Assembly: GCA_014324115.1 (NCBI GenBank) | Contig: JACOMS010000001.1 | Coordinates: 23,089 to 87,088 of the forward strand | Direction of reading: 5' to 3' | Length of the DNA stretch: 64,000 nt | Origin: Hyphomonadaceae bacterium | GTDB lineage: Bacteria; Pseudomonadota; Alphaproteobacteria; Caulobacterales; Maricaulaceae | In this document: one piece after another, positions 7,354 to 49,213 of the stretch | How the letters are laid out: each line of letters starts with the position of its first letter | Position numbering within the stretch: position 1 is the stretch's first letter | The notes under the pieces: generated by a model | Seen by the model: only the letters and a program-made list of their open reading frames with translations | The model's database searches: none | Told to the model about the DNA's origin: nothing | Position numbers and translations under genes: made by a program

Positions 7354-7481
7354 TCACACTTCACACCAAAAACCCAAGGGTCTTGGAAGTGTCCGGTTGT
7401 ATATGGGTGCCGTGGAAGAGTAGCGCCTTCGGGAGGGGTATGCGGGTCGGGCGGAAAGGAGACCCGCCCGGACAAAACAGA

Positions 7482-26510: not shown

Positions 26511-29500
26511 ATGAAAAAAGTAATTCGGAACATTATGGCGGCATCGGTTGCCGGTTTGGCCCTGGCCGCCTGTAGCGACAGTGACGACGACGTCGTTACG
26601 CCACCGCCTCCCCCGCCGCCTCCCCCGGCCGATACGGCTATGCCTGCGGTGAGCTTCAGTCCGGCGACGCTGACCGTAGATTCCGGCGGTACGGGGTCAT
26701 CAACCCTCGCCGCGACGGATAATGTGGGTGTTACAACCGGACCCACGGTGACATGTGATCAGGGTACCTTTGCTGACGATACCTACACCGCGCCTGTGGT
26801 CAGTGCCGATACCATGGCGACGTGTACCGCGACGGCTTCCGATGCTGCCAACAATGAAGGTACCGGCACGCTCACAATTTCCATCACCAGGGAAATGACA
26901 GCGCCGGTTGTCGCCTTCAGCCCGGATGCCCTTGTTGACGTGGCCTCCGGCGCGACGGTGGAATTGACAGTCACCGCCATGGATGATGTGGATGGTGACC
27001 TCGTCCCCGAGGTGACGTGTAAGTACGGTTCCTTTGACAGTGATAACAACACCTACACTGCGCCTGTGTTAAGTGCTGATACCGATGATGTGACGTGTAC
27101 CGCGACGGCAACTGACGCGGCCGGCAATGCAGGCACCGCCACAATCACGATTTCCGTTGCCGCGGAAACAGAACCGCCGGTTATCACCTTCACTCCTGCG
27201 ACTCTTGACGTGGCCTCCGGCGCGACGGGTATGTCAACCCTCGCTGCGACGGATAATCTGGATGATACGGTCGCCCCCGAGGTGACGTGTGATGCGGGTT
27301 CTTTTGCCGACAACACTTACACCGCGCCTGTGGTCAGTGTGGATACCGAGGCAACGTGTACCGCGATGGCAACTGACGCGGCCGGGAATGAAGGCGAAGC
27401 CGAACTCACAATTTCCGTCGCCAGGGAGATGACAGCGCCGGAAGTCGCCTTCGAACCGAACAGTGTTCCCGTGCAATCCGGCGAGACGGTTTCGGTGACA
27501 CTCACCGCGACGGATGATGTGGATGGTACGGTTGTCCCCACGGTGACGTGTACGAACGGTTCGTTTGATGTGGATGCCGGTACCTACACCGCACCTGACC
27601 TCAGTGCTGTTACCACGGCGACGTGTACCGCGACGGCCACTGACGCGGCCGGGAATGAAAGCGCCGCCGCCACGCTCTCGGTTATCATTGCCGCGGAAAC
27701 AACACCGCCGGTTATCACCTTCAGCCGGGATACTCTCGGCAGTGTGGCCTCCGGCGCGACGGCGGCGTTGACAGTCACCGCGACGGATAATGTGGATGGT
27801 GAGCTCGTCCCCGTGGTGACGTGTGATGCGGGTTCCTTTAATCTGGAGACCAACACCTACACTGCGCCTGTCGTCAGTGTGGATACCGAGGTGACCTGTA
27901 CCGCGACGGCAACTGACGCGGTCGGCAATGAAGGCACCGGGACACTCACATTTACTGTCGCCGCGGAAACGACGCAACCGGTCGTCACCTTCGAAGAACC
28001 GGTCCTTGTCCTGGCTTCCGGTGGAACGGATGTGTCGGTGGTCACGGTAACGGATAATGTGGATGGTATGATCGTCCCCGTGGTGACGTGTGATGGGGGC
28101 GGTTCCTTTAACGTGGAGACCAACACCTACACCGCACCTGACCTCAGTGCCGATTCCACGTTGACGTGTACCGCGACGGCAACTGACGCGGCCGGCAATG
28201 CAGGCACCGCCACGCTTAGAATTACCGTTGCCAGGGAACTGGTACGGCCGGTTGTATCCTTCGCCCCGGCGACCCTTGAAGTGGCCTCCGGCGCGACGGC
28301 TACGTCAATCCTTGCAGTGCAGGATAATGTGTCTATTGTTCCGGGAAGCGCCGCTGTGACGTGTGATCGGGGTCGCGTTGAACGGAGTGACTTTAGTCCG
28401 GATCCGGATAACGATAATCCGGATGTCGAAGCCTACGTCGCCACCATCACCTACAGCGCGCCCGTATTGAGTGCTGATGCCATGGCCACGTGTACCGCGA
28501 CGGTTTCTGATGGTGCCGGGAATACGGGCACCGGAACGCTCGCGATTTCCATCGCCAGGGAGACAGAGCCGCCGACGGTCACTTTCAGCCCGGATACCCT
28601 GACTGTGGATTCGGGCGGGGCGGTTGTGTCAACCCTCACCGCGATGGATAATCTGGATAGTGTGGTCGTCCCCGTGGTGACGTGTACGGATGGCGGTTCC
28701 TTTGCGAACGGCACCTATACCGCACCTCTCGTCAATGCTGATACGGAGGTGACGTGTACCGCGACGGCGACTGACGCGGCCGGGAATGAGGGCACCGCCA
28801 CACTCACAGTTTCCGTCGCCAGGGAAACAATGCCGCCGGTTATCACCTTCAGCCCGGACCTCCTTGAGGTGCTGTCGGGCATGACGGTGGAGAATGTGAC
28901 GGTCACGGCGAGAGACCCTGACGGCACGGAGGATGGTGACAAGGGGGTTGTGGAAACAGGAGCGGGCCGCCTCACGGTGGAATGTGATCAGGAGGGTTTC
29001 CTCAACACCAATACCAACACCTACACAGCGCCTGTCGTCAATGCTCCTACCACGGCGACGTGTACGGCGACGGTAACTGATCTTGCCGGGAATGAGGGCA
29101 CAGCCACACTCACAGTTCTCATCACGCTGACCTCTCCTCCCACTCCTCCCACTCCTCCCTCTCCCGACTCCTATGTTCGGAACATTTCTCCAGATCCGGT
29201 GTATTTCTTTGTCAGGGGTAGCGTGGTCTCCTCTGGTTTTTACGACGAGTTGAGACCAGGACAGACCTTGACCCCGGTGCAGGTCAGTGCGAGTAGAGAT
29301 GATCTTGTGCTGATCCGTGGTGCTGATGGGGCGGTTGCTCCCCCGCAGGTTGAGTGCACCAATGGCGGCAGGTTTCGGGGAACCACTTTTATTGCGCCGA
29401 GAGTCACTGAAACCACATACAGTGTCTGTACTGCGACGACTCCCGCAATTGGCGGTGTTTCCCGTGAGGCTACGCTTGTATTTGAGATCACTCCCGCCCC

Positions 29501-32180
29501 ACGGACGCCAACCTGCCCCGCCGGCTTTAGTAGAAATGCCGACTTGTCAGGAGAATTGTCAGATATAAATGATCCGAAGGTGGTCTGCACAATCAGGGCA
29601 CCCGGGGGTGTGCTGACTGGAACAACGGAGCTTAGGTATATTGAGGGTGTTGTTTATGAGCTGGACGGCCGTGTTGACGTGGGCGCAGCGGATGCCGATA
29701 GCGCTACTTGCGCAGGCGTGACGTCGGCCAGGCTGGTTATCCGGCCCGGTGTCACGGTTGTGGCTGATCAAAGGCGGGACCTTCTGGTCGTGAACCGCTG
29801 TCACCGGATTGAAGCTGTGGGAACGCAGGACCGTCCGATCCGCTTCTGGTCGAACGGGTCCGACACATGGGGCGGTATTGTTATCCTGGGTAATGCCGGG
29901 ATCGGTGTCTGTAATGTTGAGGATGCAACCCCTGGAACTGCCGGATGTCAGAATGCTGTCAGTGGCGTAACCGCAGCCGCAGGGGGAGCGTTGTGGTATG
30001 GCGGTGCCGGTGAGATGTCCAACAGCGGGATGCTTCAGTATGTGACCGTAAGCGGGGCCACGGGTCGTTTCGATAGGCGTAACGAGCAAGACGAGGCTGT
30101 TTCCTTCACCCCGGGCGGCGTTATATTCGCCGGTGTCGGTAACGGTACGACGGTGGACCGCATGCAGGTTGAACTCGAATGGAGTGGCGATAACGCCTCC
30201 AACGTCGCGGGTATGACGCTCCTCGGTGGGAATGTAAACATGAGTCGCGTTGTTCTCGCGGGGACCAGCAGTTCATACGAATACCTTGACGCAGAGGACA
30301 ACATGACTAGAACTGGTGCATATCTGGACATACGCAACGGTTACAGTGGTCGGATTCAGCGTCTGTTGATTGACGGGAGGGGCTCTTCGCAGGGCCAGTC
30401 CATCAGGGTCAACGCTTCCAATCCTGTCATCCGTAACTTCACCTTGGTGGAAGACGCCCGTGACAATACTCGCTGGATTGGTGGGGTAGGTACGTACCGG
30501 GACGGTGTTGTGATCAACACCTCCACGGATGGTGGCGACGCTTGTGTGGGGGGACCGGAAGAAGCCACGCTTGTCATCAGCTCCGTGCATTTTTACTGCA
30601 ATAATATGACTCCGCCAAGTATACTGACTGAGCGAGATGTGACTACTGGTATTGCTAACGGCGTCAATGGTAATGTTGTTAGTAGCACCATTCCGGACTT
30701 TGTAGACCCCCCCTCTCCGTACGCGGTATTCCTCCCGGTTCCGGAGACCATCAGTGTTTCCGCTGGTCGTTACCCTGGTGCTTTCAATCCGGACACGGAA
30801 ACGCTGACCGGGAACTGGACGACCGGTTGGGTGCGGTCATCGGGGACGAATTATCTGTCGCCGCGGATTGAGTGCCCGATGGGTACCAGTGAAGCCCCTT
30901 ATGATATTTTCGACCACAATGTCTGTGTGGTCAGCGCTACTTCCGTCCGTTCTAATTCTGGAGTCAACGAAATCAGCGACGCGGATGCTCTTGTGCGACT
31001 GACCCGCGGTAATCTGTACCGTCTTGACGGTCGTGTCGACATCGGTGTTGATGGCGGCGATACAGCTGAGCTTGTCATCGAACCGGGTGTTACAGTCTTC
31101 GGTCGCAACAATACGGATTACCTTGTGGTGAATGGCGGCTCTACAATCACAGCCAATGGTACGGCAGCCAACCCGATCATCTTTACGTCTGAAGAGGACG
31201 TCACAGGTGCCCGGGGTGGTCGCGATACGGCCGCCGGTGACTGGGGCGGTCTGGTCATTCTGGGCTCTGCGCCCATCACCAACTGTGATCTTGATGGCGT
31301 AACTCCCCGCACTGTCGGCTGCCAAAGCAGTATCTATGCGTCTGGTTACGGCGGCGGTGACGTTGACGACGATTCGGGTTCCTTAAGCTATGTCCAGGTC
31401 AGGTATGCCGGTTTTGGACCTTTCGACAGCGGTATCACCTTGGCCGGTGTCGGTAGGGGTACGACGGTTAAGAGCGTTCAGGTTCACAACACCGAAGGGA
31501 ACGGTATCCGCTACCTTGGCGGTACAGTGGACCCGGAGCGGATTGTTTTAACCGGTAATACCGGCCGGCAGCTTCACATTGACGGTGGTTATCTGGGCGG
31601 TATTCAACGCCTTGTCGGTGTTCAGAACGGGGTCGGGGTCGGCGGTATAGAGGTCGGCGGCAATCTCTCCAATCCGTATATCGCTAACTTCACTCTCGTC
31701 GGTACGGGCGACGAAGGTCCCGGTATCCGCGTGCGCGATGGTGCAATCGGAACCTGGCTGAATGGTGTTGTCACCAGTGATGGCGCCTGCCTTGACTATC
31801 AGCCGACAGCCGGTGACGGTATTGAGGGCCTTGAATCGAGGTCTGATCCGGAGTTCTGGTCTGTGCTGTTTGACTGTGCAGGCGGGCTGTTGACGCCGGG
31901 CAGTGACAGAACAACGGCTCTGGCCGCTGTTAATTCCGCCAGTGCCAATAATGAGACCGAGGAGGCCAACACCCTTGTCAACGGGTTTTTCAGAGGCAGG
32001 GCCGAGAGGGGAGTTCGTGCAACTCCGATTCCGCTTCCTCCCCCGCCTGCAAACGCTCCTGCTTCTCCTCCTGACGCAGCTTTGGAGGGAGGACTTGACT
32101 ACATCGGTGCTGTCGAGAATGCCTCTGATACCTGGTGGCAGGGATGGACGTATGGTCTGGAAAATTCAGACTCTGAATAA
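26511..32180 (+). CDS. very large repetitive lipoprotein: nine Ig/HYR-like repeats plus two beta-helix-like regions
   Basis: Lipobox LALAAC; poly-Pro linker; nine repeats ending CTATATDAAGNxGTATLTISVA; C-terminal RLVIRPGVTVV..DTWGGIVILGNA and ELVIEPGVTVF..GDWGGLVILGSAPI blocks; ends DYIGAVENASDTWWQGWTYGLE. Confidence 0.85.
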   Translation: MKKVIRNIMAASVAGLALAACSDSDDDVVTPPPPPPPPPADTAMPAVSFSPATLTVDSGGTGSSTLAATDNVGVTTGPTVTCDQGTFADDTYTAPVVSADTMATCTATASDAANNEGTGTLTISITREMTAPVVAFSPDALVDVASGATVELTVTAMDDVDGDLVPEVTCKYGSFDSDNNTYTAPVLSADTDDVTCTATATDAAGNAGTATITISVAAETEPPVITFTPATLDVASGATGMSTLAATDNLDDTVAPEVTCDAGSFADNTYTAPVVSVDTEATCTAMATDAAGNEGEAELTISVAREMTAPEVAFEPNSVPVQSGETVSVTLTATDDVDGTVVPTVTCTNGSFDVDAGTYTAPDLSAVTTATCTATATDAAGNESAAATLSVIIAAETTPPVITFSRDTLGSVASGATAALTVTATDNVDGELVPVVTCDAGSFNLETNTYTAPVVSVDTEVTCTATATDAVGNEGTGTLTFTVAAETTQPVVTFEEPVLVLASGGTDVSVVTVTDNVDGMIVPVVTCDGGGSFNVETNTYTAPDLSADSTLTCTATATDAAGNAGTATLRITVARELVRPVVSFAPATLEVASGATATSILAVQDNVSIVPGSAAVTCDRGRVERSDFSPDPDNDNPDVEAYVATITYSAPVLSADAMATCTATVSDGAGNTGTGTLAISIARETEPPTVTFSPDTLTVDSGGAVVSTLTAMDNLDSVVVPVVTCTDGGSFANGTYTAPLVNADTEVTCTATATDAAGNEGTATLTVSVARETMPPVITFSPDLLEVLSGMTVENVTVTARDPDGTEDGDKGVVETGAGRLTVECDQEGFLNTNTNTYTAPVVNAPTTATCTATVTDLAGNEGTATLTVLITLTSPPTPPTPPSPDSYVRNISPDPVYFFVRGSVVSSGFYDELRPGQTLTPVQVSASRDDLVLIRGADGAVAPPQVECTNGGRFRGTTFIAPRVTETTYSVCTATTPAIGGVSREATLVFEITPAPRTPTCPAGFSRNADLSGELSDINDPKVVCTIRAPGGVLTGTTELRYIEGVVYELDGRVDVGAADADSATCAGVTSARLVIRPGVTVVADQRRDLLVVNRCHRIEAVGTQDRPIRFWSNGSDTWGGIVILGNAGIGVCNVEDATPGTAGCQNAVSGVTAAAGGALWYGGAGEMSNSGMLQYVTVSGATGRFDRRNEQDEAVSFTPGGVIFAGVGNGTTVDRMQVELEWSGDNASNVAGMTLLGGNVNMSRVVLAGTSSSYEYLDAEDNMTRTGAYLDIRNGYSGRIQRLLIDGRGSSQGQSIRVNASNPVIRNFTLVEDARDNTRWIGGVGTYRDGVVINTSTDGGDACVGGPEEATLVISSVHFYCNNMTPPSILTERDVTTGIANGVNGNVVSSTIPDFVDPPSPYAVFLPVPETISVSAGRYPGAFNPDTETLTGNWTTGWVRSSGTNYLSPRIECPMGTSEAPYDIFDHNVCVVSATSVRSNSGVNEISDADALVRLTRGNLYRLDGRVDIGVDGGDTAELVIEPGVTVFGRNNTDYLVVNGGSTITANGTAANPIIFTSEEDVTGARGGRDTAAGDWGGLVILGSAPITNCDLDGVTPRTVGCQSSIYASGYGGGDVDDDSGSLSYVQVRYAGFGPFDSGITLAGVGRGTTVKSVQVHNTEGNGIRYLGGTVDPERIVLTGNTGRQLHIDGGYLGGIQRLVGVQNGVGVGGIEVGGNLSNPYIANFTLVGTGDEGPGIRVRDGAIGTWLNGVVTSDGACLDYQPTAGDGIEGLESRSDPEFWSVLFDCAGGLLTPGSDRTTALAAVNSASANNETEEANTLVNGFFRGRAERGVRATPIPLPPPPANAPASPPDAALEGGLDYIGAVENASDTWWQGWTYGLENSDSE

Positions 32181-32201
32181 CCCTGATCACATCAACACAC
32201 G

Positions 32202-32235
32202 CAGGGCCGCGCAAACTGCGCGGCCCTGTCGTTTT
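32202..32235 (+). terminator. Rho-independent terminator
   Basis: CAGGGCCGCGCA-AAC-TGCGCGGCCCTG perfect 12-bp stem followed by TCGTTTT. Confidence 0.85.
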
Positions 32236-32725
32236 AGCTCCTACAAATCTGAATAAAACGTCGCCCCGTATCAGCCTCGACAGGGCATCGGCCCCGGCAG
32301 GCCGACCGGAGGAAGACCGGGTACACAGCAACCCCTCCCTCCAAACGGGACATAAACGGTCGTTTTCCGAACAAAAACCCAAACACAGGCCCCGATGCGG
32401 AACGTTGAGGATATATGCTGCGTGCCCGGCGTGGGTGTCTGCAGCCCGCGCACCGGTTGTCCGGACAAGGCCGGAACCCGCCGCGTCATCCCGTTGCCTC
32501 ATCCCCTTGCGTTCGGGGCCTCACCCAAGGGCACGTGTGAATTCCCGTATGTATGTTTTGTGACAAAAAAGACCCATTTTCGTCATGAAAAAATCAGAAT
32601 TCCGACATCCAAAAATAAAAATTCTGTCACAACTCTCTGTCACAAGAACGGCCAAATCAGGCGGGAAAGACGAGCCCCTCGTCCTGTTCGCCAAAACAGA
32701 TCGTTCCTGTTGATGGAGGAAACCC

Positions 32726-34717
32726 GTGAGACCAACTCTCCGCCACATGGCGTCAGCATCAGCTGTCGGCCTGGCCTTGGCCGCCTGCAGCCAGGGCAGT
32801 GAAATCATATCACCGGGTCTGACCGAAGTTACACGGGATACGATCCGCCCCGCAGTGAGCTTCAGTCCGGCGGTTATTACCGTAAATTCGGCCTCCACGG
32901 GTGTATCAACACTTACCGCGACGGATAATGTGGGTGTCACGGGCGGGCCTGACGTGACATGCACGCGGGGGTCTTTTGCGGGCAACACCTACACCGCCCC
33001 CGCAGTCAGTGTTAATACGGATATTGTGTGCACCGCGACGGCAACTGACGCGGCCGGGAATGCAGGCAGCGCCACACTCACGGTGTCCATCATCGCCCCG
33101 GACGAAACGGCCCCTGTTGTATCCTTCAATCCTGTGTCACTCACCCTGCCGTCCGGCGACACCGGAATGTCACAGGTTTCGGCAACCGACGCCGTTGACG
33201 GTGCGGTGACGCCGACCGTGTCCTGCACCAATGGCGGCAGCTATAACGTCGGTACAGGTGTGTTTACGGCGCCGACGGTCCCTGACAGCACAACCAGTGT
33301 GTGTACCGCGACAGCCACAGATTCAGAAGGCAACTCCGGTTCAGGTACGCTGACGGTCAACATCACATCCGCCACGGCGGCATCCTGCCCCGGGGATGGT
33401 GCGGGCTCTGCACTGGGTGAGCAGACACTCTGCAGTGTGCCACTCGGCAACCTTTCGGAATTCAGGGGTGTTTTGACCCAATCGGCAACGATTCCCTTTG
33501 TGGAGGGTGTTGTCTATGAATTGAGCGGTCGTCTTGACGTCGGCCGGGATGGCGGCAGTACCTGCGCGGATGTGACACCGGTTGTGCTGACCATAGAGCC
33601 CGGTGTCACGATTGCCGGTGATGCGGGCTCGGACTATCTGGTTGTCAACCGCTGTCACCGGATTGAAGCTTCGGGGACGCGGGAGGCTCCGATCATGTTC
33701 ACCAGCCGGAATGACATTGCCGGGGCCGGTGCACGCGAAAACGCCATCGGTGAATGGGGCGGTGTTGTTATTCTCGGCAATGCCCCGATTAATCGCTGTA
33801 ATGTTCCGGGTCGAACCGGCGGAACAACCGGATGTGAAAACATCATTGAAGGCGTGACTGAGCCGGATGCGCTGTATGGCGGTGCCGACGGGAATTCCAA
33901 TAGCGGGACCCTTCGATATGTGACTGTGCGCCATGCCGGTAATGAAGTTGCAACAGACGTTGAGCTGAACGGCATCACCTTCGGTGGTGTCGGTGACGGC
34001 ACAACGGTTGCGTACATTCAGGTTCACAACAGTTCTGACGATGGTATGGAATTCTTCGGTGGGACTGTAGACGCGCGTTACGTCGTTCTTACAGGTAACG
34101 ACGACGAGCAACTGGACACAGACAGCGGTTATCAGGGCAGCATTCAATATGTTATCGGTCTTCAGCGCGGCGGCGACACGTCTGACAACAGTATTGAGGC
34201 CAGTTCTGTTGCACCGGGCGTAACACCGGCGTCCGATGCGACCATTGCCAACTTCACGCTCATCGGTGCGGGCAACACGGACAGTCACGGTATCCGCGTC
34301 AACTCGGGCACAATCGGAACATACCTGAATGGTGTGTTGACTGACGGAAATGCCTGTCTTGACTATGAGGACGACGCCGGGGACGGTATTGAGGGCTTCA
34401 CGGCGGGGTCTGATCCGGCATTCCGGTCTGTGCTGTTTGACTGTGCAGGCGGGGTTTTGACAACAGATACGGATGATGACGCTGATCCGGTAACCGGCCA
34501 GGCCGCCGTTGACGCCGATGCAAACAATGTGACTGACGTAGACAACACGCTTGACGGGTTCGTCAACGGCACGGTCGAGGCTGCCGTGATTGCCGCCGCG
34601 GTTCCCCAAGGCAACACCTTCCTTGAGAGTGTTGATTACATCGGTGCTGTCAGGGATGCGTCCGATACCTGGTGGCAGGGCTGGACATGCGGTCTGGAAA
34701 CCTCCGATCCCTGTTGA
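32726..34717 (+). CDS. repetitive lipoprotein paralogue: two Ig/HYR-like repeats plus one beta-helix-like domain
   Basis: GTG start; lipobox LALAAC; repeats as in the 1889-aa protein; LTIEPGVTIAGDAGSDYLVVNRCHRIEASGTREAPIMFTS..GEWGGVVILGNAPINRC; ends DYIGAVRDASDTWWQGWTCGLETSDPC. Confidence 0.87.
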   Translation: MRPTLRHMASASAVGLALAACSQGSEIISPGLTEVTRDTIRPAVSFSPAVITVNSASTGVSTLTATDNVGVTGGPDVTCTRGSFAGNTYTAPAVSVNTDIVCTATATDAAGNAGSATLTVSIIAPDETAPVVSFNPVSLTLPSGDTGMSQVSATDAVDGAVTPTVSCTNGGSYNVGTGVFTAPTVPDSTTSVCTATATDSEGNSGSGTLTVNITSATAASCPGDGAGSALGEQTLCSVPLGNLSEFRGVLTQSATIPFVEGVVYELSGRLDVGRDGGSTCADVTPVVLTIEPGVTIAGDAGSDYLVVNRCHRIEASGTREAPIMFTSRNDIAGAGARENAIGEWGGVVILGNAPINRCNVPGRTGGTTGCENIIEGVTEPDALYGGADGNSNSGTLRYVTVRHAGNEVATDVELNGITFGGVGDGTTVAYIQVHNSSDDGMEFFGGTVDARYVVLTGNDDEQLDTDSGYQGSIQYVIGLQRGGDTSDNSIEASSVAPGVTPASDATIANFTLIGAGNTDSHGIRVNSGTIGTYLNGVLTDGNACLDYEDDAGDGIEGFTAGSDPAFRSVLFDCAGGVLTTDTDDDADPVTGQAAVDADANNVTDVDNTLDGFVNGTVEAAVIAAAVPQGNTFLESVDYIGAVRDASDTWWQGWTCGLETSDPC

Positions 34718-34803
34718 TCACATATGACTGGAGCGGGCCGCGCACGGGTGCGACCCCGTCGTTTCAAATCCTGTCGGCACAGACATGACCCGGGGTTTTA
34801 TCC

Positions 34804-37395
34804 ATGAACAACAGCACATCACTCAAAACATCATTCAGGGCCGCATTGGCTGTGTCGGTCGCCGTTTCGGGTTTGGGCACGGGGGCTCAGGCACAGGACG
34901 GCGCAGCAGCAATCCCCGGGGATGAGGTCATTGCCACCGGCCGTTTCATTCCCGATCCACAGCGTGCGACATCACAGATTGCCTCCTTTCTGCGTCCGGA
35001 AGATCTGGTCAGACAGGGTGACGCAAATGCCGCTCTGGCCCTGACCCGTGTGAGCGGTCTGAGTGTCATCGGTGGACGTTTTGCCTATGTCCGCGGTTTG
35101 GGGGATCGCTATTCATCCGCCCTGCTGAACGGCTCGCCGTTGCCCAGTCCGCAACCCCTGCGCCGGACAGTGCCGCTGGATCTGTTCCCGTCCGCCATTC
35201 TGAACAACATAACGGTTCAGAAAACTTTCTCACCCGACTACCCGGGTGAATTCGGTGGCGGTATCATTGATCTGCGCACGCTGAAGTCACCTCCGGAAGA
35301 CTTTTTGAAATTCAGGATTGGAACGGGTGTAAATACCGAAACCACAGGGAAGCAGAGCATTTTCGTCCGCGGCGGTGATCATGACACAACGGGGTTTGAC
35401 GACGGTACCCGTGACATCCCCGCTCCGCTTCTGGCTGTATTGGAAGCGGGTCAGGCGCTCAATGTACAAACGGATTTCGACAGGGAAGTTATCGGTGAGT
35501 TTCTGGCTGATCCGAACCTTATGGTCATTCAGTCGGATGACGACACACGGCCGGACCTGGATATTTCGGTTGATGCGGGTAAAATTATCCCTACCCGTTT
35601 TGGAGACATAGGTTTTGTCGGAACCGTCGGTTTTGAAAACGGCTGGTCCACGAAACAAAAGATCCGGCAGAAACAGGCCAACGGCCGGGTCGTGGGCGCC
35701 TTGGATACACTGGAATCGACGTTTGAGACGACATTGAACGCGCTGGCGTCAACTTCGGTCACGTTTGACTCCGGTGAATCTGTCCAGGGGACGGTCTTTT
35801 ATGTTCACGACACATCAAAGGAAGCCCAGATTGATGAAGGCCGCAGCGTTAATGAAGAAATTCTCGTCGAGAAAAACGGGTACTATGAAAGAGAGCTCTT
35901 TTTCGCGCAACTCAACGGTGAGCATTTCTTCGGTGATCTGACAGCAAACTGGCGCGGCGCCTATTCTGTCGCGACACGCGACGCCCCGTTCGAGAGAGAA
36001 TTTGAACGGGAAAGGAATGACGCCTCGGGACAATTCCTGTTCCCGGGTGATAATGCGCACCGAATCAGGTTTACCGAAGTTGAAGATGAGGTCCGTAGCG
36101 GCGGGATAGACTTCAATTACTTCACACTGCTGCGCGGATCGTGGGAAACCGACTTTTCCATTGGTGTGGATTATGCCGGGACGGACCGCGAGTTTGCTGT
36201 CCTGAATCTGAAGTATGACGCCCTGACCCAACTGGATCCTCATATTGCGGCGACCCGCGTTGATGTCCTCTTTGATGCTGCAACCATCGGTCCCCTGTTT
36301 CAAATTCAGGAAGAACAGATCAGAACCACCGATAACTATAGCGGCGAGCTCAATGTCCTGGGGGTTTACGGCAAGGTCGACATTGAGTTCTCCCCGACTG
36401 TCCGGGCCGATGTCGGTGTACGTTACGAGGAATCCAGACTGGATGTGATCGCTTTTGACCGGTTCAGCCGGACGAACGCGCAGGGGCTTGGCCGGGCCTC
36501 ACTGGAGAATGATTACCTTCTGCCTTCAGCATCGTTTACGTGGAATTTCATGCCTGATACACAGCTGCGCCTGGGCTATTCGAACACGATTACACGTCCC
36601 CAGTTCCGTGAGCTTGCCCTGTCACGGTTTCTGGATCCGGAAAATGATCGTCTCTATAACGGGAACCCCAATCTGGTGGATTCCGGGTTCACGAATCTGG
36701 ATGCACGTATTGAGCATTATTTCGGGCGCGACCAGTTTTTTGCCTTTGCCGGTTTTTACAAGGACATTGAAAACCCGATTGAGGAATCAACATTTGAAAC
36801 GTCCGCGAACAATTTCGAAACCTCCTTTATTAACGCGCCCGCTGCCGTGCTGTCCGGTTTTGAAGCCGAGTTCAGAACGAATTTTGACATGCCGTTCGGC
36901 GGAGAGTTTTTCGACGTGCGCGACTGGTTCTTCACCGTAAACTATACCTATACGGATGCAACCGTGAAGGCGGGGCCAGATGACACAATCACTGATGCAC
37001 GCGGCAAGCGTACGCCTGCGAATCTGTTTGGTATTGACGGTCAGCCCCTGCAGGGCACCCCTGAAAATATCGCGAACGGCCAGTTCGGCTGGGAGACAGA
37101 CAATGAGCAGTTTACAATACTCGCAGGTTGGGTGGATGATCGCGTGTCTCGCCGGGGTATACGCGGCAGCAGCGCTGTTCCGGACGTGATTGAAAGTCCG
37201 GGCGTGCAACTGGATCTGGTTTATCGCCGTAAATTCAGGCTGCACAACCGGCGCTTCAGTTTGGGGTTGAGTGCCAGAAACTTTTTGAATATGGATTTTG
37301 AAGAGTTTCAGACGAGTGAAGAGGCGGGCCGCACCGAGTTTAATACCTACAGGCGCGGCGTGTCTTTCTCGGTTTCCCTGTCAACCGGGTTGTGA
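34804..37395 (+). CDS. TonB-dependent outer-membrane receptor
   Basis: Signal peptide; plug FAYVRGLGDRYSSALLNGSPLPSPQPLRRTVPLDLFPSAILNNITVQKTFSPDYPGEFGGGIIDLRT; C-terminal strand ending VSFSVSLSTGL. Confidence 0.92.
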   Translation: MNNSTSLKTSFRAALAVSVAVSGLGTGAQAQDGAAAIPGDEVIATGRFIPDPQRATSQIASFLRPEDLVRQGDANAALALTRVSGLSVIGGRFAYVRGLGDRYSSALLNGSPLPSPQPLRRTVPLDLFPSAILNNITVQKTFSPDYPGEFGGGIIDLRTLKSPPEDFLKFRIGTGVNTETTGKQSIFVRGGDHDTTGFDDGTRDIPAPLLAVLEAGQALNVQTDFDREVIGEFLADPNLMVIQSDDDTRPDLDISVDAGKIIPTRFGDIGFVGTVGFENGWSTKQKIRQKQANGRVVGALDTLESTFETTLNALASTSVTFDSGESVQGTVFYVHDTSKEAQIDEGRSVNEEILVEKNGYYERELFFAQLNGEHFFGDLTANWRGAYSVATRDAPFEREFERERNDASGQFLFPGDNAHRIRFTEVEDEVRSGGIDFNYFTLLRGSWETDFSIGVDYAGTDREFAVLNLKYDALTQLDPHIAATRVDVLFDAATIGPLFQIQEEQIRTTDNYSGELNVLGVYGKVDIEFSPTVRADVGVRYEESRLDVIAFDRFSRTNAQGLGRASLENDYLLPSASFTWNFMPDTQLRLGYSNTITRPQFRELALSRFLDPENDRLYNGNPNLVDSGFTNLDARIEHYFGRDQFFAFAGFYKDIENPIEESTFETSANNFETSFINAPAAVLSGFEAEFRTNFDMPFGGEFFDVRDWFFTVNYTYTDATVKAGPDDTITDARGKRTPANLFGIDGQPLQGTPENIANGQFGWETDNEQFTILAGWVDDRVSRRGIRGSSAVPDVIESPGVQLDLVYRRKFRLHNRRFSLGLSARNFLNMDFEEFQTSEEAGRTEFNTYRRGVSFSVSLSTGL

Positions 37396-37497
37396 TACGC
37401 CTTTGTGACAAATGGGAAAGGTTGGAAATTCGGTCTTTCTCTTTTTGCGTGGCCTGTGTTACACGGCGAAAAATATATAATGTGAGCCAGGAAATCC

Positions 37498-38337
37498 ATG
37501 AACAGGCGTGTCAACATTCCCGTAATCCCTTATGCACTGACGGTCGTGCAGGCAGTCGCGCTGTTTGCACTTGGATTTTTTATATTTCGCAGCGTTGTCG
37601 GGGCCATATCGCCTGACAGTCTCTGGCAGGATGTGCAGATCCGGCAGGTGAACCAGACGGGTTCCCGGCCGGGGCAGGACAGCCGACCGGAAGCATTTGA
37701 ACATGATCCGTTTCACCGCGAGGAGGTGGTTGCTGTCGCTGAGGATGCACAACCCGAGGCAAATGCACCGGAAACGACACTCAACCTTAAACTTACAGGT
37801 CGCCGATCTGTAAATGGAAGAGGAACAGCCGTTATCCGGACACCCGACGGCACGGAAAAAACCTATGTGACCGGTGACGAAATCCTCAACGGTGTCAGGT
37901 TGAGGTCCGTGTTTCCGGCCTATGTAGTATTGTCCCGTGCCGACGGTACGTCTGAACGTCTGACATTTGCCGAAAATGATCGCCAGTCGGTCATCCGGAC
38001 GATCGAAAGACCGGCCCCCCAGCTCCAGCAGACCTCCCGCCCGTCCGCCCCGGATACACAGGTGGAGGCGTCTTTGCTGGATTTTCTGAATGAGGCCGGT
38101 TTGCGTCGAAAAGTGACCGACGGCAGAGTCGAAGGGTATGAAATTACCAGGGAATTGGAAAAGTTCAAAGCCACGGGGTTGAATTCCGGCGACATACTCA
38201 CACATATTAACGGCACGGATTTGCGCCAGGGTATCCCGGATTTTGCTGCGATGTCCGGGGTCGGTGCGGATGCAGGGTCCATGTCTGTCCAGTTAATCCG
38301 GAACGGTCAATCTCAAACACTTGAAGTTGGATTATGA
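37498..38337 (+). CDS. gspC: type II secretion system protein GspC (PDZ)
   Basis: N-terminal TM, homology region and C-terminal PDZ-like (TGLNSGDILTHINGTDLRQG); first gene of gsp operon. Confidence 0.88.
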   Translation: MNRRVNIPVIPYALTVVQAVALFALGFFIFRSVVGAISPDSLWQDVQIRQVNQTGSRPGQDSRPEAFEHDPFHREEVVAVAEDAQPEANAPETTLNLKLTGRRSVNGRGTAVIRTPDGTEKTYVTGDEILNGVRLRSVFPAYVVLSRADGTSERLTFAENDRQSVIRTIERPAPQLQQTSRPSAPDTQVEASLLDFLNEAGLRRKVTDGRVEGYEITRELEKFKATGLNSGDILTHINGTDLRQGIPDFAAMSGVGADAGSMSVQLIRNGQSQTLEVGL

Positions 38338-40253
38338 AAAAATCAGTAGCAGCGCTTCTGGCCGGAGCCGCCATGTGTCTTGCGGCTCCGCTTACCGCCA
38401 GCGCCCAGGGCGATCATATTATCACGATGCAGGGAGCCAATATCCGCGCCTTTATTGACGATGTCTCCAAAGTCACAGGCCGCACCTTCCTCGTCGATCC
38501 GCGGGTGCGGGGCGAGGTGACCATATCATCTGAACAGGGGTTGTCTCCGGAGGAGGTTTTCGATGTCTTCGCGAATGTCATGCGTGTACACGGTTATACG
38601 GTGATTCCCACACCAACGGGTGAGTACCGGATCACCCTTATCCAAGGTGCGGCACAGGAGTCCCCCTTTGTTACGGGTTCGGGGCCGGAGGGACAGTTTG
38701 CCACGGCCATTATCACGCTCGAACACGTTGATGCAGCTGAGGCGGCCAAGCTCATCAAGCCTGCAATGCATGCGCAGGGTGTCCTGACGGGCAATCCCGG
38801 GGGCAGGATTATTGTGGTTTCGGATTTTCCGGAAAATCTGCGCAAGGCCCGGGAAATTGTTGCGGCCATGGATGTCAGGAAGGCTGTCATTGAAGTCGTT
38901 CGGCTCGAAAATCTTGATCCGGCCGAGGTTGAGGGCGCCATCAGGTCCCTGGCCGGTTCGCGTCCGCCCTATCGCATCGCCGCTGTTCCCGGCACAAAGA
39001 ACCTGATGCTGGAAGGTGAACCTGCCGAGCTTGAGCGGGTACGCAAGGTGATTGTCCAAATTGATGCCCAGGGCGTTATGCAGCGCGGACCGGTCACAAT
39101 TGTCCCTTTGCGCCATTCAAACGGAGAGAACCTGATCGGGCTTCTTAACACGCTTTTACCGAATTATGAGCGGGAAGGGGAGCCTGCTCCGACCGTGGCC
39201 CATGAGCCCGGGAGCAATACGATCGTCATCAGTGCCACACCGGAAACACAGCGGGCGCTGGAACAGACTATTCGTCAAATTGATGTCCGCCGCCCCCAGG
39301 TTCTGGTCGAAGCCATTATTGTTGAAGTCAGCGATATGGCCGCACGGGATCTCGGTGTCCAATTCGCACTCAGCGGTGCACAGGGAAGTTCCGTTCCGTT
39401 TATAGGAACAAATTTCACGGGTCAGGGCCGCCCCAACCTGTTGGCTTTGACCGGTGCCGTAGTCGGATCACAGGGTACTGCGGGCGATTCGGGGGGTGAA
39501 AATGGTACTGCGGGGAGGCTCCTGAGCGGTGAGCAACTTGGTGAACTTCGGACACAGGCGATTAATTCGTTGACGGGAACGAGGGGTATCGGCATTGGTG
39601 GTGTGGGTCGACAGGGTGATGTTGTGTTCGGCGCCATTGTTAATGCGCTGGAAAGCGACACGGACTCCAATGTCCTCTCAACACCCTTTGTGACGACCCT
39701 CGACAATGTCCCGGCCAGTTTTCTTGTGGGCCAGGACATTCCGATCAGGACAGGGTCTTCCCTCGGCTCGGCTAATCAAAACCCGTTCCAGACTTTTGAG
39801 CGCAGGGAGGTCGGTATCAAGCTGGAAGTGCTGCCGCAAATCAGCACGGACGACGTCATCCGCCTTGAAATTAAACAGGAAGTCTCTTCACTTAACACGA
39901 CCGCCAGTGCCGGCTTCAATGATACCATTACCAACCAGCGCACCATAGAGGCGACCGTTCTGGTTGATGACGGCGAGATTATTGTTTTAGGCGGCCTGAT
40001 ACAGGATGATGAAGAGATTACTGTGGACAGAGTCCCCGTTCTGGGCGACGTTCCCCTGATCGGAAATCTCTTCAAGAGCGAAAATAAATCCCGCGACAAA
40101 ACCAATCTGATGGTTTTTCTGCGCCCGACAATTATCCGTGACAAGGATGATGCCATGCACCTGACGCAGGATAGGCTTGATCAAATGCGCCAGCATGACA
40201 TGCTCCAGTCCGGGCGAGATTATTCAAAAATCGACACACTTGTGAAGCCCTGA
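38334..40253 (+). CDS. gspD: type II secretion system secretin GspD
   Basis: N-domains, VLVEAIIVEVSD, VPVLGDVPLIGNLFKS, TNLMVFLRPTII. Confidence 0.95.
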   Translation: MKKSVAALLAGAAMCLAAPLTASAQGDHIITMQGANIRAFIDDVSKVTGRTFLVDPRVRGEVTISSEQGLSPEEVFDVFANVMRVHGYTVIPTPTGEYRITLIQGAAQESPFVTGSGPEGQFATAIITLEHVDAAEAAKLIKPAMHAQGVLTGNPGGRIIVVSDFPENLRKAREIVAAMDVRKAVIEVVRLENLDPAEVEGAIRSLAGSRPPYRIAAVPGTKNLMLEGEPAELERVRKVIVQIDAQGVMQRGPVTIVPLRHSNGENLIGLLNTLLPNYEREGEPAPTVAHEPGSNTIVISATPETQRALEQTIRQIDVRRPQVLVEAIIVEVSDMAARDLGVQFALSGAQGSSVPFIGTNFTGQGRPNLLALTGAVVGSQGTAGDSGGENGTAGRLLSGEQLGELRTQAINSLTGTRGIGIGGVGRQGDVVFGAIVNALESDTDSNVLSTPFVTTLDNVPASFLVGQDIPIRTGSSLGSANQNPFQTFERREVGIKLEVLPQISTDDVIRLEIKQEVSSLNTTASAGFNDTITNQRTIEATVLVDDGEIIVLGGLIQDDEEITVDRVPVLGDVPLIGNLFKSENKSRDKTNLMVFLRPTIIRDKDDAMHLTQDRLDQMRQHDMLQSGRDYSKIDTLVKP

Positions 40254-40256
40254 TCC

Positions 40257-41753
40257 GTGAGTGACACTGATACGATAACCCTGCCGCGTCTGTCTTACAG
40301 TTTTGCGCGAAAATTCGGCCTTGTTGCCTTTGAGCACGCGGGCGAAGCCGTTTTGGCCCGGCGTCCCGGTGTGCCCTTGTCGGCGTTGCTGGAAGCCCGT
40401 CGCGTTATTGATCGGCCGGTAACCTGCAGGGACATTGACGGCTCCGAATTTGAAAGCCTGATGGCACAGGTTTATGCCAATGCCGATCTGTCACAGACGG
40501 CCGAGACGGCCCTGGGGGGTGACGATGATCTGAGTACGCTGGCCGACAATCTGCCGCACTCATCCGACCTTTTGGACAGTGATGACGATGCGCCGGTGAT
40601 CAAGCTGATCAACGGTATTTTGCAGGAAGCCATCAAGATGCGTGCCTCTGATATTCACATTGAATCTTATGAGAAACGCCTCGCCATCCGGTTCAGAATT
40701 GACGGGGCCCTGCGTGACACATTGATGCTTTCGGCGCGTTTGTCACCGGTTCTCGTCAGTCGCGTGAAAGTTATGGCGCAGCTTGACATTGCTAAAAAAC
40801 GTGTGCCGCAGGACGGGCGCTTCTCGCTCAATCTCGGCGAGCGGGCCGTCGATGTCCGTGTATCAACCCTGCCGTCTCAGCACGGTGAACGGGTTGTGAT
40901 GCGGATTTTGGAAAAAACCAGCTCGCTGTTAAACCTCTCCGACCTCGGAATGGACACCGGTGAGCTGGCGGCGTTTGAGAATTCTCTCAAATGTCCCAAC
41001 GGAATCATTCTGGTCACAGGTCCGACGGGTTCGGGCAAGACGACGACACTCTATGCGTCCCTGACCGGGCTTAATAACGGCTCCCGCAATATTCTGACCG
41101 TCGAGGATCCGGTGGAATACGCACTTGACGGCATCGGCCAGACCCAAGTCAATAACCGTGTCGGGATGAGCTTTGCCGCAGGGCTGCGAGCGATCCTGCG
41201 TCAGGATCCGGACGTGGTTATGGTCGGGGAAATCCGTGACCCGGAAACGGCTGAAATCGCGGTGCAGGCCTCGCTCACGGGTCACCTCGTATTGTCCACC
41301 GTTCACACCAATTCCGCCATCGCTGCGATTACGCGGCTGCGGGATATGGGTGTGGAACCGTTTCTTCTGGCTTCAACGGTCACATCTATTGTGGCTCAAC
41401 GTCTGGTCCGTCGCCTGTGTCCCCATTGCCGTGAACCCTACACCTTGACGGCCGGGGAGTGCGAGGAACTGGGCCTGTCGCAGCCTGACACCCCTGTGTT
41501 CAGGTCCAAAGGCTGTCAAATCTGCCACCATATAGGCTACACCGGACGCCTCGGGCTTTACGAAATTGTGGTGATGGATGACACACTTCGCGCCATGATT
41601 CACGATGGCGCCCGTGAGATAGACATGGCCGCCCATGCTTTTATCCATCGTGATACACTGCTTCAGAGCGGTGCAAGTCATGTTTTGGCCGGTAATACGT
41701 CCGTGGAGGAAGTGCTGCGGGTCTGCCGGACCGGCGCAGGCGAAGGTGGCTAG
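40257..41753 (+). CDS. gspE: type II secretion ATPase GspE
   Basis: GPTGSGKTTTLYASL Walker A; CPHC..CQIC zinc site. Confidence 0.97.
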   Translation: MSDTDTITLPRLSYSFARKFGLVAFEHAGEAVLARRPGVPLSALLEARRVIDRPVTCRDIDGSEFESLMAQVYANADLSQTAETALGGDDDLSTLADNLPHSSDLLDSDDDAPVIKLINGILQEAIKMRASDIHIESYEKRLAIRFRIDGALRDTLMLSARLSPVLVSRVKVMAQLDIAKKRVPQDGRFSLNLGERAVDVRVSTLPSQHGERVVMRILEKTSSLLNLSDLGMDTGELAAFENSLKCPNGIILVTGPTGSGKTTTLYASLTGLNNGSRNILTVEDPVEYALDGIGQTQVNNRVGMSFAAGLRAILRQDPDVVMVGEIRDPETAEIAVQASLTGHLVLSTVHTNSAIAAITRLRDMGVEPFLLASTVTSIVAQRLVRRLCPHCREPYTLTAGECEELGLSQPDTPVFRSKGCQICHHIGYTGRLGLYEIVVMDDTLRAMIHDGAREIDMAAHAFIHRDTLLQSGASHVLAGNTSVEEVLRVCRTGAGEGG

Positions 41754-42959
41754 ATGGAGACGTTTGATTACGCTGCTTTCGACGCGGACGGCAATCGTTT
41801 GCGGGGGTCTGTTCCGGCCAATAATGCACGTGAAGCGCGCGATATACTGCGCGCCCGCCGCCTGACGCCGATTGATCTCAAGGCTTCAAAGGCCGGGGCG
41901 GGACAATCCTTTACCCTTGAACGCAAGGCGAGCCACAAGGACCTGACCCAGGCGACACGCCAGTTGAGCATATTGATTGATGCAGCCACGCCGGTCGAAC
42001 AATCGCTCAAAATTGTGGCTGTCCAGTTTGACCGCTCCGCCATGCGGCAAATCCTCCTGGACGTGCAGGCCCAGGTCCTGGAGGGGGCGCGGCTTTCCGA
42101 TGCCATGGGCAGACATTCCAAAACCTTTTCAAGTCTTTATACGGGCATGGTGGCGTCCGGGGAAACATCGGGCCGTCTCGCCGAGGTTCTTGATCGCCTC
42201 GCCACGGACCTTGAGGCCGCGCAAAAGGTGCGCCGCAGAATCCTTGCCGCTACCGTCTATCCCATGGTTCTCTTTGTGGTTGCATTGGTTGTTACCACAA
42301 TTTTGATGATTTTTGTTGTTCCCAAGGTTGTCGAGCAGTTTGACACATTCGGGCAGGAACTACCCGGCTTGACCAGGTTCGTGATAGGTATGTCCGAATG
42401 GATGCAGAATTATGGGCTGATTTTTCTGATTATGGTTTTGGCCTTTATGTTCGGTTTCAGCCGTGCGTTGAAAAAACCGGCAATGAGGCTGTGGTGGCAC
42501 GAACGGCTGTTATCCCTGCCGCTTGTCGGGCGCCTGATCCGTGATCTGAATGCGGCCCGATTCGCCCGCACCATGGCCGGGCTGATTGACAGCGGCACGC
42601 CGGCCCTGACGGCCATGGAAACGTCCAGACATACCCTTCGCAACCGGGTTATATATGATGCGGTTTCAGGCGCCGCTGCAAAGGTACGGGAAGGAGCCAC
42701 GGTCAGCGCCTCCCTGCGCCAGACAGGTGTTTTCCCGCCAATGGTGACACAGATGGTGGCGGGGGGCGAAGCCAGTGGTGATATCGGTAAAATGTTCAGC
42801 AAGTCGGCGGATTATCTTGAGGGCGAGTTTGATGCGGCGACCTCTATCTTTCTTTCACTTCTCGAACCTTTAATTATCATAATGATGTCGATTGTTGTAT
42901 TATTGATTATTGGTGCTATATTCATGCCGATCCTGCAAATGAACACACTGGCACTTTAG
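41754..42959 (+). CDS. gspF: type II secretion inner-membrane protein GspF
   Basis: METFDYAAFDADGNRLRGSV; GLIDSGTPALTAM; VAGGEASGDIGKM. Confidence 0.96.
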   Translation: METFDYAAFDADGNRLRGSVPANNAREARDILRARRLTPIDLKASKAGAGQSFTLERKASHKDLTQATRQLSILIDAATPVEQSLKIVAVQFDRSAMRQILLDVQAQVLEGARLSDAMGRHSKTFSSLYTGMVASGETSGRLAEVLDRLATDLEAAQKVRRRILAATVYPMVLFVVALVVTTILMIFVVPKVVEQFDTFGQELPGLTRFVIGMSEWMQNYGLIFLIMVLAFMFGFSRALKKPAMRLWWHERLLSLPLVGRLIRDLNAARFARTMAGLIDSGTPALTAMETSRHTLRNRVIYDAVSGAAAKVREGATVSASLRQTGVFPPMVTQMVAGGEASGDIGKMFSKSADYLEGEFDAATSIFLSLLEPLIIIMMSIVVLLIIGAIFMPILQMNTLAL

Positions 42960-42962
42960 GAG

Positions 42963-43466
42963 ATGACTATGGTTGCAGAATGCGAAAATACCCAACCCGC
43001 GAATGAAAGGCCGGGTGCCAGAAAACCTGCAGCTAGAAAACGAAGCGGGGAAGCAGGTTTTACACTTGTCGAGATCATGATCGTCATGGTCATTATCTCC
43101 CTGCTCGCAACCGCCGTTGTTTTAAACCTCGGCGGCGTATTACCCGATGCCCAGGCCAAAAAGGCGAGAGCCGATATAAGCACCATTGATATGGCCCTTG
43201 AGCTGTATCGCCTTGACATGTATGATTACCCGGATGAAAGTTACGGCCTGAGGGCGCTCACGGAAGTACCGGCAGGTGCACCGAACGAGCAGAATTATTC
43301 TAAAGATGGATACATCAAAGGCGGTCTCCCGAATGATCCATGGGGCCGTCCCTATGTTTACCGTTATCCCGGTGAGTATGGTGTTTATGACATAATGTCC
43401 TACGGAGCGGACGGTGCTCCCGGTGGCGAGGGTAGGGATGCCGATATTACCAACTGGAACAAGTAG
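42963..43466 (+). CDS. gspG: major pseudopilin GspG
   Basis: GEAGFTLVEIMIVMVIISLLA prepilin motif; DPWGRPYVYRYPGEYGVYDIMSYGADGAPGGEGRDADI. Confidence 0.97.
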   Translation: MTMVAECENTQPANERPGARKPAARKRSGEAGFTLVEIMIVMVIISLLATAVVLNLGGVLPDAQAKKARADISTIDMALELYRLDMYDYPDESYGLRALTEVPAGAPNEQNYSKDGYIKGGLPNDPWGRPYVYRYPGEYGVYDIMSYGADGAPGGEGRDADITNWNK

Positions 43467-43483
43467 GTCTTGTCACCTCCGCC

Positions 43484-43957
43484 ATGGGTGGCCATCGGAA
43501 ATCTGAGGCAGGGTTCACGCTCATAGAGCTTCTGGCGGTTCTGGTCATTATCGGCCTTGTGTCCGGCACTGTGGTCCTGAGCCTGTCGGGGCCAAAGGCC
43601 GCGGCCCGGACGGAAACGGAAGAACTGGTCCGGCAGTTTCGCCTGGCGGCAGAGGAAGCCATTATCACAGGCCGCCCCCACGCCTGGGGCCTGTCGGGTA
43701 CGGAGCACGTCTTTTTCCGGTTTCATGACACGGAATGGGTGCCTCTCTCCGAGCCTAGATTGAATCCCGGTTCACGTATTAAACTGACCCGCGAGGCCCG
43801 GAACGTCAAACTGACCGAGGAGATCATTCCGCTGGTGATATTCGAACCCATCGGCATGACAACGCGGTTTTCCCTGCGGATTGAAGCGGACGACCGGACG
43901 GTCACGATTGAAGGGCCGGGAGATGGACGCATTGAGCGCACGGAGACGGCCAAATGA
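43484..43957 (+). CDS. gspH: pseudopilin GspH
   Basis: ESEAGFTLIELLAVLVIIGL-type motif (KSEAGFTLIELLAVLVIIGL); position in operon. Confidence 0.9.
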   Translation: MGGHRKSEAGFTLIELLAVLVIIGLVSGTVVLSLSGPKAAARTETEELVRQFRLAAEEAIITGRPHAWGLSGTEHVFFRFHDTEWVPLSEPRLNPGSRIKLTREARNVKLTEEIIPLVIFEPIGMTTRFSLRIEADDRTVTIEGPGDGRIERTETAK

Positions 43958-44373
43958 CAAAATCGCCAAAGAAGGATAGGGGCTTTACCCTTATTGAAGT
44001 CCTGGCGGCACTGATCGTGTTCAGCATTGCGATATTGGGCCTGTCGCAGGCCGGTTCGCAAAGCGTGCGTTCCGTCGGTGTTTTGGAAAACCGGATGCTC
44101 GCCGGCATTGTGGCGGATAATGTATTGGTCCTGGCGCGCACGCGCGAGCCGGTACTGGGCCGCCAAGACGGCGAACAGACCCAGATGGGTCGCAAATTTG
44201 ACTGGGAGCTCGATATTGAGCGCACAGATGTGCCGGGGTTTTTGGAACTGACAGTGAACGTGCGTGCACAAGACACGTCGCAAGTGCTCATAACCCGAAC
44301 AGCCTATCTGTCACAGCAAAGGCGCACCGCACCCGCTAGCGGGACCTCGCCGGGTCAAGGGGCTAAACCATGA
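43954..44373 (+). CDS. gspI: pseudopilin GspI
   Basis: DRGFTLIEVLAALIVFSIAILGL; ATGA overlap with gspH. Confidence 0.92.
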   Translation: MTKSPKKDRGFTLIEVLAALIVFSIAILGLSQAGSQSVRSVGVLENRMLAGIVADNVLVLARTREPVLGRQDGEQTQMGRKFDWELDIERTDVPGFLELTVNVRAQDTSQVLITRTAYLSQQRRTAPASGTSPGQGAKP

Positions 44374-44984
44374 CCGCAGAATCGAGTGTTTTACGTCACG
44401 ATGCCGGGTTCACGCTGGTTGAGGTGCTTGTCGCGATGTTTATTTTTTCCCTGATTTCCGTCGGCACATTTTACGCCATGACATCGGCCGTTGACAGTCA
44501 TGACCGCGTAAAAGCGGCCAATCAGCGTCTGGCCGGGATTGAAACCGCCCGCACCCTGATCAAATCCGATCTCGCCAATGTTGTTCTGACACCAACCCGT
44601 GATCCCTACGGCACACAAAGCCTGTATGTCTTTTCGGGCGGTGTGGATGATCTGTTCAACCTGACCCGCACGTCACGGGACAATCCCGGCGGTCTTGACA
44701 GGCGCGGAGACCTGCAACGGGTCGTTTACCGGGTCGAGGATGCCGCGTTGATCCGCGAAGTCCTGGCCCAGACCAACCCGGCCCCCCGGACGGATACAAT
44801 CCGGCAAACCCTGTTATCCGGCGTTGAACGCGCTGTTGTCGAGTTCTTCGAAAACGATCTATCCTACAACCAGCTTTATATTGGGAATGATCCGGATGCG
44901 ACTTTCTCTCATAACCGCGTCCGGCTGACACTGACCTTCACAGACGGTGATCAGCTGTCACAGGATTTCGAGCTCGCCCCATGA
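44370..44984 (+). CDS. gspJ: pseudopilin GspJ
   Basis: DAGFTLVEVLVAMFIFSLISV; ATGA overlap. Confidence 0.92.
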   Translation: MTAESSVLRHDAGFTLVEVLVAMFIFSLISVGTFYAMTSAVDSHDRVKAANQRLAGIETARTLIKSDLANVVLTPTRDPYGTQSLYVFSGGVDDLFNLTRTSRDNPGGLDRRGDLQRVVYRVEDAALIREVLAQTNPAPRTDTIRQTLLSGVERAVVEFFENDLSYNQLYIGNDPDATFSHNRVRLTLTFTDGDQLSQDFELAP

Positions 44985-47046: not shown

Positions 47047-47495
47047 AGTTTCTGGCCGACCGCTCACCCCGCGAACGTCTCCTGATCCTCATTATGCTGG
47101 TCCTGTTGGGGACATTCCTGATCTGGCAATTCCTGGTTTCACCGGTTCTGGGGATGCGTGCTGTTGCCGAAAGTGACCGGCAGGCTGCGATCCGGGATTA
47201 TGAAATCGTTGCGCAGAATCTGTCCGCCATGGAAGTCGACGGGTCTGAGAAAGCCGCGTTTACACGCAACATCCTTATTCAGGAAGCGCGGGCGGCGGGC
47301 ATCAGGATTTCCCGTGTCCAGCCACAAGGCGAAGATGCTATCAAGGTCTGGTTTGAGGATGCTCCTGCGTTGCAGGTTTTTACCTTTCTCGACGACCTCT
47401 CCGGGCGCTTTGATGTATCTGTCACCAACGCCCAGATCAATCGTCGCGACGGCGGAACCGTTGGCGCACAATTCACCTTGCTTGTCAGTGAATGA
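47043..47495 (+). CDS. gspM: type II secretion protein GspM
   Basis: DRSPRERLLILIMLVLLGTFLIWQF; position in operon. Confidence 0.9.
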   Translation: MKFLADRSPRERLLILIMLVLLGTFLIWQFLVSPVLGMRAVAESDRQAAIRDYEIVAQNLSAMEVDGSEKAAFTRNILIQEARAAGIRISRVQPQGEDAIKVWFEDAPALQVFTFLDDLSGRFDVSVTNAQINRRDGGTVGAQFTLLVSE

Positions 47496-49138: not shown

Positions 49139-49213
49139 GCCGTGCCATACATGGGGCGCCCATTTTTCTCTACACAAATCCCGCCCGCCCGTGTATAAGC
49201 GCACCCACACAAA

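Follow-up and report, generated by a model that had tools for sequence, protein, structure and literature searches.

The locus examined here lies in a 2.3-Mb draft genome of a Hyphomonadaceae bacterium (125 contigs, 90% complete), within a window, meaning the whole 64,000-nucleotide stretch of DNA that was analysed, that corresponds to positions 23089–87088 of contig C1. On the plus strand of the window, a lipoprotein gene that we refer to as LP1 (26511–32180, an ORF of 1889 aa) is followed by a second, LP2 (32726–34717, 663 aa, GTG start), a TonB-dependent receptor (TBDR) gene of the Cc0171 type (34804–37395, 863 aa) and a type II secretion system (T2SS) operon with gspC, D, E, F, G, H, I, J, K, L, M and N (37498–48196). 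The prepilin peptidase gene gspO (Peptidase_A24) is antisense to these, on the minus strand at 48689–49798, a placement as in Caulobacter. The ORFs and Pfam matches thereby confirmed the layout reported in the first-pass annotation, namely two lipoproteins with a LALAAC lipobox, then a TBDR, then gspC-N, all on one strand. LP1 and LP2 are separated by 545 nt, and the end of LP2 and the start of the TBDR gene, on the same strand, by 86 nt. Terminator-like hairpins were found on the plus strand 3' of LP1 (32201–32229, 13 pairs) and, by consensus scan only, in the interval between the TBDR gene and gspC (37414–37441). Because of the hairpin and 545-nt gap after LP1 and the hairpin before gspC, the genes do not constitute a single obvious operon; the hairpins suggest separate transcription units, LP1 potentially being its own, bearing in mind that the counts of such hairpins in the region by consensus scan were not above those in shuffled sequence.

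The two lipoproteins share an organization but differ greatly in size. LP1 begins with a signal peptide and LALAAC, continues with an acidic stretch after the cysteine (CSDSDDD) and is then composed of nine Ig-like repeats of ~90 aa each and two tandem ElpS-like cores, located by tblastn at 29607–30827 (core A) and 30987–32171 (core B), both on the plus strand. LP2 has a signal peptide and LALAAC, two Ig-like repeats and a single core (33371–34714, plus strand). The Ig-like repeats had weak matches to Big_13/OmpL47, and no Pfam or NCBIfam family matched the core. The LP2 core is ~40–67% identical to cores of Caulobacterales and Xanthomonadales, and invariant cysteines are present in the core. 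An AlphaFold2 model of the core built from 71 sequences was confident (mean pLDDT 94.5) and beta-rich, and its top matches among PDB structures were nearly all right-handed beta-helix enzymes or tailspikes, the best having an E value of 4e-3 and none being significant. Neither the core nor the TBDR had a match in the PDB by sequence or profile search. The first-pass description of these proteins as "repeat/beta-helix" can be refined: the repeats are Ig-like, and a beta-helix is supported for the core, by a confident AlphaFold2 model whose PDB matches are non-significant.

The TBDR has only a Plug (PF07715) and a barrel (PF00593) domain, and its assignment to the Cc0171 type was based on these, on an AlphaFold2 model and on synteny. 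The model (pLDDT 86) matched solved TonB-dependent transporters with E values down to 6e-26, and is that of an ordinary transporter equally similar to many unrelated ones, which counts against assigning a ligand. The nearest named relative, at 68% identity, is in an uncultured Hyphomonadaceae MAG (L143). To place the gene in context we used 80 named TBDR loci chosen as the best TBDR matches, with ~10 kb on either side, of which those with at least 2 kb upstream were considered informative. In all 73 informative loci a lipoprotein core was encoded directly upstream of the TBDR, a result that supports the coupling of lipoprotein and receptor in the first-pass annotation. These loci span Hyphomonadaceae, Maricaulaceae, Parvularculaceae, Caulobacteraceae and Xanthomonadales, and include Caulobacter spp. 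in which gspD follows the TBDR gene (L198 and L201). The lipoprotein and the TBDR are thus an obligate neighbour pair, in which LP2 occupies the ElpS-type position, immediately upstream of the Cc0171-type TBDR on the same strand.

This layout was published in 2010, and much of its biology is known as well. In C. crescentus, gspC-N is directly preceded by cc0170 (encoding the lipoprotein ElpS) and cc0171 (encoding a TBDR), gspO is oriented the other way, and Hyphomonas, Sphingomonas and Xanthomonas have their genes arranged similarly (Le Blastier et al. 2010, PMC2996285). ElpS was digested by proteinase K on intact Caulobacter cells with or without gspC-N, and its release was T2SS-dependent and blocked by protease inhibitors (PMC2996285). 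The window shares with the elpS locus the lipoprotein–TBDR–gspC-N order, the antisense gspO and the lipobox; the Caulobacter loci L198 and L201 are laid out alike. Based on synteny, the equal layout of the Caulobacter loci and a motif described below, LP2 is likely the ElpS orthologue. There are also differences, as the window has two lipoprotein genes, Ig-like stalks and a tandem-core LP1, whereas Caulobacter has one ~500-aa gene; in addition, its T2SS is of a distinct lineage, it has no recognisable Pho box, and its genome has a large amplification of copies. LP1 is probably a paralogue that arose from lineage-specific amplification of the ElpS-like domain, with Ig-like stalks added. Neither this amplification, nor the post-cysteine motif, nor the switch of T2SS lineage and its phosphate-gene context was found in the papers covered by our limited literature search.

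That motif was evident when the lipoproteins of the 73 loci were compared. By a simple rule, 71 of the 73 have a lipobox, and in 65 of those 71 an SPG tripeptide is positioned 5–15 residues past the cysteine, mostly 7–9; elsewhere, SPG occurs only three times in 42,965 core residues. The motif has the form [D/N/E][I/V]xSPG, as in CSQGSDIASPG and CGGSAEVASPGEG, and is followed by a non-conserved Gly/Pro-rich linker. LP2 carries it (CSQGSEIISPG); LP1 has the lipobox and CSDSDDDVV in place of the SPG motif. The SPG motif, which is conserved in both Caulobacterales and Xanthomonadales and belongs to a protein whose partner receptor is always of a single type, is a candidate signal for sorting or docking.

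The T2SS of the window is complete, as gspC-N and a prepilin peptidase are present. Pfam identified T2SSC, the secretin, G, H, I, J, K, L, M and N, and gspE and gspF were named by tblastn similarity to T2SS loci of congeners and of the taxonomic order. Among the named TBDR loci with enough downstream DNA, gspD or gspE was within the retrieved stretch in 53 of 67. Across 150 genomes of this order, to which Hyphomonas, Caulobacter and Parvularcula belong, we found the TBDR in 113, the core in 115 and gspD in 110. The linkage to gsp envisaged in the first-pass annotation was upheld in part. With the window's own genome left out, TBDR and gspD co-occurred in 101 of 112 TBDR genomes (odds ratio 33, uncorrected for phylogeny and with related genomes not independent), and in 77 (69%) gspD started within 3 kb past the TBDR gene, in the same orientation. 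On the other hand, gspD was within 15 kb in another arrangement in 5 and elsewhere in 19, and 11 had no gspD match at E 1e-60. The T2SS is therefore a frequent partner of a fixed lipoprotein–TBDR pair, and it is the pair that is the real unit, because its adjacency is 73/73 while T2SS linkage is looser.

A gspD ~60–65% identical to that of the window is present throughout the ten genomes of the genus, although the core and the full TBDR were absent from the nine congeners and present within the genus only in the window's genome. In a gspD tree the window is placed with full support in a clade whose 17 rows represent three genera. The other members of this clade are all unlinked to the pair, and the clade is separate from the 53 pair-linked gspDs, to which the window's gspD is 35–44% identical. 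Its T2SS thus belongs to a lineage otherwise unlinked to the lipoprotein–TBDR pair, and the tree fits either one re-formation of the linkage or at least two losses. As a separate observation, in relatives of genus g4 (L225–L230) gspN and gspO come straight after gspD, and gspE-M were not found in the locus, representing a split T2SS operon.

These data bear on the possibility that only the lipoprotein–TBDR pair functions as a unit, the T2SS being a common passenger that is there incidentally or is no more than co-regulated. Invariable pair adjacency (73/73) against an immediate T2SS linkage of 69% that varies between genera is as expected of a passenger, as is the terminator-like hairpin between the TBDR gene and gspC. 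However, TBDR and gspD co-occur far above independence (phylogeny uncorrected), a pair-linked T2SS drawn from an otherwise unlinked lineage hints that the linkage was re-formed, and the release of ElpS is T2SS-dependent (PMC2996285). We regard an incidental T2SS as possible, if rather less than probable.

What the pair acquires is suggested by its phosphate context. ElpS is induced by phosphate starvation in Caulobacter crescentus (PMC2996285), and the T2SS of that species belongs to the PhoB regulon (PMC11208175). Upstream of gspC in the congener locus L141 are genes for a NUDIX protein, phoU, pstB, pstA, pstC, pstS and a porin O/P (L141:10369–17349), the pst names being assigned from Pfam domains and gene order, and parts of this NUDIX/phoU-pstBACS/phosphate-selective porin set also precede the T2SS in L139, L233 and L234. 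This context independently supports a phosphate role for the window's T2SS lineage. In addition, Pho-box-like sites with at most three mismatches were found upstream of the lipoprotein in 24 of 73 relatives versus 2.3% of control windows. Other observations count against a phosphate reading: ElpS did not behave as a phosphatase (PMC2996285), and porin O/P had no match in the window's own genome. PhoB is encoded in that genome. Also counting against a phosphate reading, a scan of the window showed that LP1, LP2, the TBDR gene and gspC all lack a canonical Pho box upstream, the best site having five mismatches, which is at chance level. The direct repeat CTGTCA-N7-CTGTCA upstream of LP2 (32624–32642, plus strand) has a 13-nt spacing versus the 11 nt of the canonical Pho box. 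A phosphate role in the Hyphomonadaceae bacterium itself is one that we infer, and a phosphate-related ligand is the one we favour for the TBDR.

Considered together, these findings make it reasonably probable that LP2 and its neighbouring TBDR represent, in this bacterium, the ElpS/Cc0171 pair for acquisition of a scarce nutrient, with surface display independent of the T2SS and with LP1 derived from the amplification. LP2 would be a lipid-anchored, beta-helix-like surface protein that contacts and works with a dedicated TBDR, plausibly feeding it the ligand, and the nutrient would most likely be phosphate, whether set free from organic molecules or still part of them. Sorting of the lipoprotein to the surface would probably be independent of the neighbouring T2SS, with the [D/N/E][I/V]xSPG sequence after the cysteine as a candidate signal for sorting or docking. 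The T2SS, for its part, would more likely secrete hydrolases or a protease acting in nutrient mobilisation and in release of the lipoprotein. LP1 would be a paralogue produced by an amplification to at least 16 copies, some of which have no lipobox and are candidate soluble T2SS cargo; the functions ascribed here to LP1 and the extra copies are ones we infer. The SPG motif and the fixed receptor partner make the route by which proteobacterial lipoproteins such as ElpS reach the surface without the T2SS directly testable.

A somewhat doubtful variant of this reading is that LP2 and the TBDR are a proteobacterial counterpart of SusC/SusD for phosphorylated ligands, in which SPG sorts or docks the lipoprotein independently of the T2SS and at least 16 lipoprotein variants would serve one receptor. 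The likeness to the Bacteroidota system is that the genes for a TBDR and a surface lipoprotein are obligate neighbours. The differences are that the core is beta-rich and beta-helix-like, not helical, that the TBDR has only a Plug and a barrel, and that no Pfam match to a SusD (TPR) domain was found.

Pullulanase PulA of Klebsiella is a surface lipoprotein encoded beside its own T2SS (Pul). On that model LP1 and LP2 would be T2SS cargo that passes a ligand to the TBDR at the surface, which is in essence what the first-pass annotation proposed. A surface lipoprotein adjacent to a T2SS is the point of resemblance, and the gene order in the window, the strong tendency of genomes of the order to have both TBDR and gspD, and the invariant core cysteines, which fit periplasmic folding before export, all count in its favour. 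However, LP1 and LP2 have no pullulanase or other enzyme domain in Pfam, and the tested homologue, ElpS, stays surface-exposed in Caulobacter without gspC-N, the T2SS being needed only for its protease-dependent release (PMC2996285). The export model was not borne out because ElpS, the apparent orthologue, is displayed independently of gspC-N. Moreover, the situation that the first-pass annotation named as contradicting its idea does occur, since 11 of the 112 TBDR genomes had homologues without a gspD match and 19 had gspD elsewhere, and congeners have a T2SS of the same lineage and neither the lipoprotein nor the full receptor. We consider PulA-like export unlikely, and T2SS-independent display of an ElpS/Cc0171 pair remains the reading we prefer.

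An unusual feature of this genome is the extent to which the ElpS-like domain has been amplified. Its own contigs yielded 32 matches to the LP2 core on ~20 contigs, compared with at most five in each of 149 other genomes of the order, at most four in 136 other genomes of the family (the four being two identical copies in one assembly) and at most five in any of ~250 other genomes overall. Most relatives have one lipoprotein gene with two cores. In the window's genome, B-type 3' ends that differ in their downstream DNA numbered at least 16, as counted from searches and retrieved stretches, and there was one full TBDR of the Cc0171 type. Contamination is unlikely because contigs with copies carry the housekeeping genes recA, alaS, mutL and tyrS (identified by eye from translations) and have compositions like that of the window, except C117 (3 kb) and, in part, C99. 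A small genome in which a surface protein has multiplied beside a receptor that remained single offers a natural setting for asking why this happens.

The copies vary in structure. The lipobox is retained in those on C65 and C10, and those on C99, C2 and C72 have an ordinary signal peptide with no lipobox cysteine; judged by sequence, the latter are candidates for soluble secreted forms that could be T2SS cargo. Lipobox-less ElpS-like paralogues with signal peptides lie at L071:2832–7622, L071:7668–9170, L070:7408–8376 and L073:8800–10527. Copies that have otherwise diverged share DNA blocks of 90–97% identity, an indication that they have exchanged sequence, and the C65 copy, which clusters with A-type cores and has a B-type end, suggests a chimaera. 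Several copies are degraded or ended by contig ends, and IS5-type remnants, of which there are ~40 copies or fragments and in which many contigs end, offer an ordinary route for dispersal and decay. That LP1, LP2 and the dispersed copies are a recombining repertoire shuffled beside a single receptor, varying the surface with respect to phage or ligand range, would account for one full TBDR against at least 16 domain copies, the shared blocks of high identity and the apparent chimaera, but is improbable given the many truncated or degraded copies, the ordinary IS5-like route, and reverse transcriptases that are a Drt3 defence pair with no DGR-like mutation pattern.

A retro-copy or diversity-generating retroelement origin for the 5'-truncated 3' ends was also considered and rejected. 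No such retroelement was encountered, the only reverse transcriptases found in the genome being the two like Drt3a and Drt3b, and no A-restricted changes were seen by eye among the aligned 3' ends. The truncated ends are not evidence of retrotransposition because many are contig ends and the reverse transcriptases are Drt3; nor is an unrelated ~355-nt repeat of the window (7040–7394), whose one fixed end had prompted the idea, because its minus-strand translation resembles an IS5-type transposase remnant, one of the ~40 in this genome. The adjacent Drt3a- and Drt3b-matching genes (L236:6913–10438, contig C20) are a predicted DRT3 anti-phage defence system. Lastly, at the end of contig C27 (L134:9348–9567) the tail of an ElpS-like core is fused in frame to ankyrin-like repeats, and an ankyrin-like ORF is also present at L073:1783–2883.
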